Assembly: GCF_000744815.1 (NCBI RefSeq)
Contig: NZ_JQMQ01000005.1
Span: forward strand, 4,224,055-4,288,054
Origin: Phaeacidiphilus oryzae TH49
GTDB lineage: Bacteria; Actinomycetota; Actinomycetes; Streptomycetales; Streptomycetaceae
Direction of reading: 5' to 3'
DNA length: 64,000 bases
Of the stretch, positions 27,965 through 61,830 are shown piece after piece. The position numbers and the translations under genes were made by a program. The first letter of the stretch is position 1, and each line of letters starts with the position of its first letter. The notes under the pieces were generated by a model. That model had not been told where the DNA came from, made no database searches, and saw only the letters and a program-made list of their open reading frames with translations.

Positions 27965-28065
27965 CGCGCAGTTCCCCGCGCCCCTGAGTTGCTGCGCAAC
28001 TCGCGGGGCGCCCCGGATCCGCGGCCCGAAGGGCCAGGCGGATCAGGGGCGCGGGGAACTGCGCG
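27965..28065. repeat. Palindromic intergenic element, locus 1
   Basis: Outer arms are perfect 21-bp inverted repeats at 27965-27985 and 28045-28065, each holding the word GGGGCGCGGGGAACTGCGCG or its complement. Inside are two smaller hairpins: GAGTTG-CTGCG-CAACTC (27986-28002) and a GGATCCGC/GCGGATC stem containing GGCCC-GAA-GGGCC. The same 21-bp word occurs nine times in this window, always between genes. Confidence 0.9.
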
Positions 28066-28354
28066 GCCGGCCGCGTACGGTCTGCGGACGGGTACGGAGA
28101 GTGGGTTGCAGCCCGGGGGCCGTTGCCGGGTGCGGCGCGGTGGTGGGCTGGTCGCGCAGTTCCCCGCGCCCTTGGGATGCGCCTTCGGCGCCGGAGGCGC
28201 GAAAACAGGGGCGCGGGGAACTGCGCGGTCGGCTGCGTATGGTCTGCGGGCGGGTGCGGAGATTGGGTTGCAGCCCGGTGGCCGTTGCCGGGTGCGGTGC
28301 GGGGGTGGGCTGGTCGCGCAGTTCCCCGCGCCCCTGGGATGCGCCTTCGGCGCG
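28045..28354. repeat. 162-bp tandem duplication of the palindromic element
   Basis: Bases from 28045 recur from 28207 with a constant 162-bp offset and few differences; both copies carry GGTTGCAGCCCGG, GGCCGTTGCCGGGTGCGG and GGGCTGGTCGCGCAG, and end near CGCCTTCGGCGC. Core words lie at 28045-28065, 28153-28173 (one mismatch), 28207-28227 and 28315-28335. The block fills the gap between the TetR gene and the DUF2786 gene; no gene is seen in it. Confidence 0.85.
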
Positions 28355-37588: not shown

Positions 37589-38782
37589 GTGGCGAAGGCG
37601 AAGTTCGAGCGGACCAAGCCGCACGTCAACATCGGCACCATCGGTCACATCGACCACGGCAAGACCACCCTGACTGCCGCGATCACCAAGGTGCTGCACG
37701 ACGCGTACCCGGAGCTGAACCCCTTCACGCCGTTCGACCAGATCGACAAGGCGCCTGAGGAGCGGCAGCGCGGTATCACCATCTCCATCGCGCACGTCGA
37801 GTACCAGACCGAGGCGCGTCACTACGCCCACGTCGACTGCCCCGGTCACGCGGACTACATCAAGAACATGATCACCGGTGCCGCCCAGATGGACGGCGCG
37901 ATCCTGGTGGTCGCCGCGACCGACGGCCCGATGCCGCAGACCAAGGAGCACGTGCTCCTGGCCCGCCAGGTCGGCGTGCCGTACATCGTCGTCGCCCTGA
38001 ACAAGGCCGACATGGTCGACGACGAGGAGATCATGGAGCTCGTCGAGCTCGAGGTCCGTGAGCTCCTCAACGAGTACGAGTTCCCGGGCGACGACGTTCC
38101 GGTCGTCCAGGTCTCGGCGCTCAAGGCGCTCGAGGGCGACAAGGAGTGGGGCGAGAAGCTCCTCGGCCTCATGCACGCCGTCGACGAGTCGATCCCGACT
38201 CCGGAGCGCGACGTCGACAAGCCGTTCCTCATGCCGATCGAGGACGTCTTCACCATCACCGGCCGTGGCACCGTCGTCACCGGTCGTATTGAGCGCGGTG
38301 TGCTCAAGGTGAACGAAGAGGTCGAGATCATCGGCATCAAGGAAGAGAAGACCAAGACCACGGTCACCGGCATCGAGATGTTCCGGAAGCTGCTGGACGA
38401 GGGCCAGGCCGGTGAGAACGTCGGTCTGCTCCTCCGCGGCATCAAGCGCGAGGACGTCGAGCGCGGCCAGGTCATCATCAAGCCGGGTACGGTCACGCCG
38501 CACACCGACTTCGAGGGCCAGGCGTACATCCTGTCGAAGGACGAGGGCGGCCGCCACACCCCGTTCTTCAACAACTACCGTCCGCAGTTCTACTTCCGGA
38601 CGACCGACGTGACCGGCGTCGTGACCCTCCCCGAGGGCACCGAGATGGTCATGCCGGGCGACAACACCGCCATGACGGTCGCGCTGATCCAGCCGGTCGC
38701 CATGGAGGAGGGCCTGAAGTTCGCCATCCGCGAGGGTGGCCGGACCGTCGGCGCCGGCCAGGTCACCAAGATCATCAAGTGA
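37589..38782 (+). CDS. tuf: Elongation factor Tu
   Basis: Delivers aminoacyl-tRNA to the ribosome. 397 residues. G1 is [17 protein letters not shown], switch II is [14 protein letters not shown] and G4 is [13 protein letters not shown]. It is of the tuf1 type and ends [23 protein letters not shown] start preceded by ACAGGAGGA. It ends the str operon, followed by a strong terminator and a long palindrome. Confidence 0.99.
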
Positions 38783-38808
38783 CCTCGCTGAGCGCGTAGC
38801 GCTCGTCG

Positions 38809-38856
38809 CGAAGGCCCCGCGCGTTCCCCCTCCGGGGGGAGGGTGCGGGGCCTTCG
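38809..38856 (+). terminator. Terminator of the str operon
   Basis: CGAAGGCCCCGC (38809-38820) pairs with GCGGGGCCTTCG (38845-38856), with CCCCCTCCGGGGGGAGGG inside forming a second stem. TGGTTTTGTT follows. Confidence 0.88.
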
Positions 38857-38872
38857 TGGTTTTGTTCTCCCC

Positions 38873-39024
38873 GTCTGCGGGTCCGTAGGTGGCTGGGCGC
38901 GCAGTTCCCCGCGCCCCTGATTCGCCTGGCCCTTCGGGCCGCAAATCCGGGGCGCCCCGAGAGTTGCGGAGCAACTCAAGGGGCGCGGGGAACTGCGCGC
39001 CCAGCCACCTACGGACCCGCAGAC
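38873..39024. repeat. Palindromic element, locus 2, perfect 46-bp arms
   Basis: The arms 38873-38918 and 38979-39024 are exact inverted repeats of 46 bases; they begin GTCTGCGGGTCCGTAGG and contain the genome-repeated core near their inner ends (38898-38918 and 38979-38999). The 60-base centre holds GGCCCTTCGGGCC and GAGTTGCGGAGCAACTC hairpins. It fills the gap between convergent tuf and rfbC and could act as a bidirectional terminator. Confidence 0.92.
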
Positions 39025-39057
39025 GCTTCCGCCGGTGCGGGAAGGGCCACGGGGCGA

Positions 39058-39669
39058 TCAGGCGCCGGGCCCGTCCAGGGATGCGGTGAAGGCGACGCAG
39101 TCCTCGTAGCGGGGGAGGAGGCCGGAGGCCTTCGCCTCGGCGAGGCTCGGCGCCGCCGCGTCCTTCGCCGAGAGGACCCGGTCGGCCGCCTCGACCGGCC
39201 AGTCGATGGCCAGCTCCGGATCGAGGGGATGCACCCCGTGCTCGCGTCCCGGCGCGTACCCCGCCGAGCAGAGGTAGGTCAGCGTCGCCTCGTCGCTCAG
39301 CGCGCAGAAGCCGTGGCCCAGGCCCTCGGCCAGGTAGACCGCCCGCCGCTCCGCGTCGTCCAGCCGCACGCCCTCCCAGCGGCCGTACGTCGGCGAGCCG
39401 ACCCGCAGGTCCACCACCACGTCCAGGACCGCCCCGCGTACGCAGGTCACGTACTTCGCCTGGCTCGGCGGCACGTCGGCGAAGTGGACGCCGCGGACGA
39501 CTCCGCGCGCGGAGACCGAGAGGTTGGCCTGTTCCAGGCGGAGCGGATGGCCCACCGCGTCGGCGAGGTGGTCGGCCCGGTACCACTCCATGAACAGTCC
39601 GCGGGAGTCCCCGTGCTGCTGGGGGATGATCTCCCAGGCGCCTTCGATGCCCAGCGGTCGGATCTTCAC
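39058..39669 (-). CDS. rfbC: dTDP-4-dehydrorhamnose 3,5-epimerase
   Basis: Third step of dTDP-L-rhamnose synthesis. A 203-residue cupin. Motifs: [15 protein letters not shown], the catalytic His in [20 protein letters not shown] and the Tyr/His region [19 protein letters not shown]. Its ATG overlaps the rfbA stop (ATGA), so translation is coupled. Its 3' end abuts the 46-bp-arm palindrome. Confidence 0.95.
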
Positions 39670-61408: not shown

Positions 61409-61538
61409 AGGGGCGCGGGGAACTGCGCGCCTAGGCGCGAACGGCGCCGCAGCCGGCAACGGCCATTGGGTTGCAACCGAGACTCCGCTGCCGGCTGCGG
61501 CGCCGTTCGCGGCTGGCCGCGCAGTTCCCCGCGCCCCT
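61409..61538. repeat. Palindromic element, locus 3
   Basis: Outer 21-bp core words at 61409-61429 and 61518-61538 are inverted; inside, 22-bp arms at 61436-61457 and 61490-61511 (starting CGCGAACGGCGCCGCAG) are also exact inverted repeats. An AAGTTGCGCAGCAACTT hairpin lies immediately upstream at 61391-61407, the same companion hairpin as at the other two loci. Confidence 0.9.
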
Positions 61539-61830
61539 TATTTGGCCCTTCGGGCCTGCGCTCGGGGCGCGTCGGCTGGTCGCGCCCGCGCGGCGGAGCC
61601 GCAGAGTGTTGCGGTCCCGCGCCCCTTACTTGGCCCTCCGGGCCTGCGTTCGGGCCGCGTCGGCTGGTCGCGCCCGCGCGGCGGAGCCGCAGAGTGTTGC
61701 GGTCCCGCGCCCCTTACTTGGCCCTTCGGGCCTGCGCTCGGGGCGCGTCGGCTGGTCGCGCCCGCGCGGCGGAGCCGCAGAGTGTTGCGGTCCCGCGCGC
61801 CTTACTTGGCCCTTCGGGCCTGCGCTCGCG
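61538..61830. repeat. 88-bp tandem repeat array
   Basis: Units begin at 61538, 61626, 61714 and 61802 (the last partial), each opening TTACTTGGCCCTTCGGGCC or a close variant and containing GTCGGCTGGTCGCGCCCGCG and GGCGGAGCCGCAGAGTGTTG. The period is exactly 88 bases with few changes. Units end in CCGCGCCCCT, the tail of the palindromic core word. No gene is seen; the array ends about 75 bases before map. Confidence 0.92.

Follow-up and report, generated by a model that had tools for sequence, protein, structure and literature searches.

Between the convergent genes tuf and rfbC lies an inverted repeat whose two arms are complementary at every position. The locus raises the question of what kind of element this is and why its arms are identical: whether one arm is copied from the other, whether selection for a transcript end holds the stem perfect, or whether the repeat is simply young. 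We analysed it within the window, the whole stretch of 64,000 nucleotides of DNA, and compared it with its relatives in the same genome and in other genomes.

The tuf-rfbC repeat and its genomic family

A preliminary description had given the repeat perfect arms of 46 bp (38873-39024). The perfect repeat is indeed present in the gap, and we found each arm to be 47 bp long (38872-39025), with 100% complementarity across a 60-nt spacer. The names tuf and rfbC were assigned from the translations plus matches in relatives. RNA folding of positions 38860-39040 gave -153.3 kcal/mol, compared with -85.7 on average for shuffled sequences (z about -14.4 to -14.5; 0 of 200 shuffles as good), and the opposite strand gave -166.4 kcal/mol (z about -14.4). 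On either strand the predicted structure is a long stem and a three-way junction carrying two hairpins, in agreement with the earlier remark that the centre folds further. An element built in this way, with two inverted 21-nt cores set in structured sequence, could form a long stem topped by two hairpins, either as single-stranded DNA or as RNA.

Table 1. Features of the tuf-rfbC locus and other family copies in the window.
Feature	Position	Strand	Description
tuf (elongation factor Tu)	37589-38782	+	ORF; DNA matches in 61/61 genomes searched
tuf-side hairpin and T-rich tail	38809-38856	+	likely tuf terminator, outside repeat; 22-nt inverted repeat, 86%; terminator-like scan hit 38839-38855; hairpin at same place in relatives (by eye)
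Left arm	38872-38918	+	47 nt; contains core 38898-38918
Centre	38919-38978	.	60 nt; hairpin GGCCCTTCGGGCC (38928-38940), GGGGCGCCCCG (38949-38959), hairpin GAGTTGCGGAGCAACTC (38961-38977)
Right arm	38979-39025	-	47 nt; contains core 38979-38999 on - strand
rfbC (dTDP-4-dehydrorhamnose 3,5-epimerase type)	39058-39669	-	ORF; relatives found
Five-core array, same family	27965-28335	.	alternating + - + - +; core scan
Core-out copy, same family	61409-61538	.	core scan

The preliminary description was also right that a 21-bp core recurs elsewhere. The core CGCGCAGTTCCCCGCGCCCCT occurs nine times in the window at up to 3 mismatches, where 0.01 occurrences are expected, and 352 times in the 7.8-Mb genome at up to 1 mismatch, against a single occurrence of a reversed control pattern. 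In a contiguous 2-Mb piece the cores form two kinds of pair: 36 core-out pairs (- then +), mostly 107-109 bp apart, and 14 core-in pairs (+ then -), 46-149 bp apart, to which the tuf-rfbC copy belongs; 23 of the 62 core clusters in these 2 Mb are single cores. The junctions of adjacent core-out units also resemble core-in pairs, and the solo core-in copies are a separate family with a conserved three-part centre. The tuf-rfbC repeat is thus one copy of a non-coding interspersed palindromic family and not a singular feature.

Several further observations concern the surroundings of these copies. The five-core array holds a 162-bp unit present 1.9 times at 93% (28044-28353) and forms a small BIME-like cluster. 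An 88-bp unit, present 3.4 times at 96% (window 61528-61828), begins within the right core of the core-out copy. Next to the tuf-rfbC repeat, a second short motif, CGTGGCCCTTCCCGCACCGG, lies on the - strand at about 39030-39051; it occurs five times in 2 Mb (up to 2 mismatches), four of these within 300 bp of a core. Assignment of the repeat to a described RNA family was rejected, the Rfam matches above gathering score in the window being three tRNAs only, as was a phage origin, for which no matching phage record was found.

Arm identity within and between copies

The more interesting feature of the repeat is the perfect match of its arms. We examined it in an alignment (A1) of the window copy and 12 loci chosen from longer genomic matches (n = 13). 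The alignment omits L061 and L069, both being the window copy again, L078 and L081, which belong to arrays, matches of partial length, and second matches to these places on the opposite strand. These 13 core-in copies could be aligned across 166 positions of a covariance model. With two strands of one place counted apart, the model found 55 matches in its own genome, and the tuf-rfbC copy ranked first, as expected for a member of the model. The centre is conserved across all 13, with both-side changes within its hairpins.

In three of the 13 copies, the tuf-rfbC one among them, all 41 stem columns are Watson-Crick paired, but the best sibling outer arms match theirs only at 77-88%. Because the arms match within a copy and not between copies, one arm appears to template the other. 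The remaining 10 copies have imperfect arms, so that such correction would not be constant. Cells changed on both sides of a pair numbered 55, whereas shuffles gave 22.1, and sliding the partners brought the covariation score of 0.154 down to at most 0.055. This strong signal belongs to 13 chosen copies and is measured against a shuffle control that leaves their relatedness in. The main stem alone held 36 both-side changed cells and 6 one-side G-U cells; an excess of this kind fits arm copying better than stepwise compensation in RNA.

As a second measure, arm identity was tested by permutation, pairs having a core with more than 2 mismatches being dropped. Core-out pairs gave no within-element excess of arm identity at 15 nt (4811 of 5000 permutations reached the observed value), and the 14 core-in pairs, pooled to include array junctions, gave only a weak one (1101/5000 at 15 nt; 114/5000 at 40 nt). 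Like the 10 imperfect copies, these results weigh against arm copying. Separately, when the copies were oriented by the centre, the mismatched arm positions in A1 columns 8-33 with 167-192 comprised 20 A-C and 5 G-T. Transcription direction could underlie this strand asymmetry, as could RNA pairing confined to one strand or the weight of a few unusual copies, L066 by itself accounting for 6 of the A-C cells.

Template switching is reported both to make and to repair perfect stems (PMC8794818), and homogenisation of the arms of inverted repeats has been described along with the inversion of spacers by switching between arms (PMC8604942). We propose that one arm of a solo core-in copy would act as the template for the other, the arms thereby becoming identical, and that polymerase template switching inside the quasi-palindrome would repair the stem and lengthen it. 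The suggestion of active repair between arms, made when the repeat was first noted, is borne out indirectly, in that each of the three perfect copies has its own arm sequence. The reading that we regard as probable is that the repeat is a REPIN- or ERIC-like interspersed palindrome at gene 3' ends, which spread in trans, in which template switching keeps the two arms the same and on which tuf does not depend. With at least 13 copies of the core-in type in one genome, many with their own arm pair, the family provides a natural test of DNA template switching against RNA selection as the source of perfect stems, a question raised in PMC8794818.

The tuf-rfbC gap and the alternatives

Selection on RNA is the basis of one alternative, in which the repeat is a dedicated bidirectional terminator or 3'-end stabiliser whose stem is kept perfect for the sake of the tuf and rfbC transcripts. 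The repeat sits between convergent genes, its predicted fold is strong on both strands, no other obvious rfbC hairpin lies in the gap, and the family as a whole is enriched in such places. The 62 core clusters of the 2-Mb piece (kept from 85, those whose best core had more than 2 mismatches being dropped) fall in convergent gaps in 38 cases, tandem gaps in 21, a divergent gap in 1 and called genes in 2, by gene calls from home-made codon log-odds (coding fraction 0.83) rather than a standard gene finder. Convergent gaps make up 17% of the remaining intergenic bases, and 17 of the 21 tandem clusters lie closer to the upstream stop. This placement at gene 3' ends may mark either transcript ends or sites that tolerate insertion. 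There is also a precedent in Streptomyces clavuligerus, where hairpin 3' ends that lack a U tract, and bidirectional 3' ends, have been reported (PMC8269248).

Against this, a hairpin with a T-rich tail already stands between tuf and the repeat. It was the sole terminator-like hit when 38700-39100 was scanned for a G+C-rich hairpin followed by a T run, and the scan found no T run adjoining the repeat. The surplus of both-side over G-U changes in the main stem likewise runs counter to selection on the RNA. Comparison of relatives points the same way. Among 30 tuf loci, our own genome included, rfbC faces tuf in four, and the gaps of the other three hold no core; among 80 loci retrieved through rfbC similarity, 19 hold tuf, directly facing rfbC in 14, the remaining 5, with tuf farther away, not being counted. 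The repeat is absent from all 17 of these other facing gaps (3 from the tuf loci and 14 from the rfbC-similarity loci). By eye, the relatives' facing gaps have a hairpin beside tuf, and among the 14 another often stands beside rfbC, at the position occupied here by the repeat. In three other relatives, core-out copies lie downstream of tuf without rfbC.

The earlier proposal of a bidirectional terminator setting tuf apart from its neighbour is therefore not supported where tuf is concerned, since the gene's own hairpin and T-rich tail precede the repeat and the relatives do without it. We reject the repeat as a terminator needed by tuf, which, judged from sequence, would have its own; for rfbC, the repeat may at most serve as an extra stop or as a stabiliser of the transcripts. 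A dedicated terminator or stabiliser for both genes is, in our judgement, unlikely. The family also furnishes convergent gaps with hairpins, and it varies from one sister species to another.

Very unlikely, we think, is that the arms are perfect from recency alone, the repeat being a young transposed element in which no arm-to-arm copying took place. Its absence from every other examined tuf-rfbC gap agrees with a recent arrival, and the gap measures 275 bp here and about 130-180 bp in three relatives, as expected of an insertion. However, no near-identical donor is seen in the genome, since identity reaches only 86% with the nearest of the aligned siblings and 89% over 159 bp with the best match elsewhere in the genome, and the arms resemble each other more than they do any sibling's arms. 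The recent origin put forward in the preliminary description is thus weakly supported at best. That the centre is an invertible switch flipping between the arms has next to no probability: the arms are perfect and arm-to-arm switching is reported to invert spacers (PMC8604942), but our scan of 38700-39100 contained no promoter-like site and no linked recombinase was found.

Spread of the family and comparison with known elements

The arm-copying reading leaves the question of how the copies multiply. The exact 21-nt core was found in 114 of 200 Streptomycetaceae genomes, at 0-429 copies each, and its count is patchy inside genera, genus g6 having 429 copies in one genome (G005) and 0 in another (G020). 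A 20-nt version of the core was absent from all 15 genomes taken from two other families of the order. At 1e-6, the covariance model matched 5 of 31 genomes including its own, and two genomes from a single further genus held most of the other matches. Matches to plasmids were all to Streptomyces, with five records matching 30-32% of the query. Within one genus, orthologous gaps at two other loci carry a copy in certain species and lack it in the rest (seven genomes at the first locus, the other 13 having been left out for their shorter stretches). In genus g6 we also observed loci (L288-L295) with the same outer cores and a different interior of nearly equal length, often with 106-110 bp between core starts, the ends being conserved and the middle replaced. 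In PMC, strings of the core sequence matched no paper, and none of the titles or abstract starts listed by keyword searches describes the family.

The evidence of spread consists of these differences in occupancy and copy number; in the comparison of occupied with empty loci, no insertion boundaries or target duplications could be placed. As for a driver, the Y1/RAYT transposase (PF01797) had no match in the own genome, and its domain was present in four of 10 high-copy relatives (G125, G201, G018 and G288) and absent in six, on which grounds a RAYT-driven REPIN was rejected. Core pairs lying 400-5000 bp apart in the 2 Mb enclose no recognised transposase gene (translations inspected by eye), and no autonomous parent was recognised there. 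Spread was probably brought about by an enzyme acting in trans. A bolder version, to which we give a small chance, is a transposase-orphan Streptomycetaceae palindrome family that would spread in the form of a T-shaped hairpin of single-stranded DNA, rewrite both arms by fold-back copying during its own replication and leave stop hairpins at convergent gene ends.

With MITEs the family shares terminal inverted repeats and presence or absence between related genomes. The ERIC/IRU elements of enterobacteria are imperfect palindromes of about 130 bp, intergenic and often transcribed, with no known transposase; by description alone, the family resembles them in size, palindromic form, intergenic placement and absence of a known transposase, in a different phylum.

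The REPs tagged with GTAG or CGTC, as presented in PMC3733652, are likewise palindromic and extragenic, and the CGTC type also has no dedicated transposase; the core-in consensus ends here begin with CGTC. Those REPs are 20-40 bp long and end on one side in an unpaired tag, whereas our arms are 47 bp, the element is about 154 bp, and CGTC lies within the paired arms. The text of PMC3733652 on these REPs names neither Streptomyces nor actinobacteria. Inverted repeats homogenised by template switching (PMC8794818, PMC8604942) show the same identical arms and stems extended through arm-to-arm copying, but this is a mutational process, inferred here, and not an element family.

REPINs, which are REP doublets forming hairpins, are described with two short conserved inverted ends, a less conserved spacer, a hairpin or clover-like fold, compensatory changes, high copy number and extragenic location (PMC3116915). 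The family has the inverted doublet of a short conserved end, the high copy number and the extragenic placement. It differs in being longer (about 130-170 bp), in having two geometries, core-out and core-in, and in its missing association with a RAYT, the Y1 tyrosine transposase; because the genome has no Y1/RAYT, we do not class the family as REPIN. Although it fails this transposase link, its architecture is closest to that of REPINs among the known bacterial interspersed palindromes.
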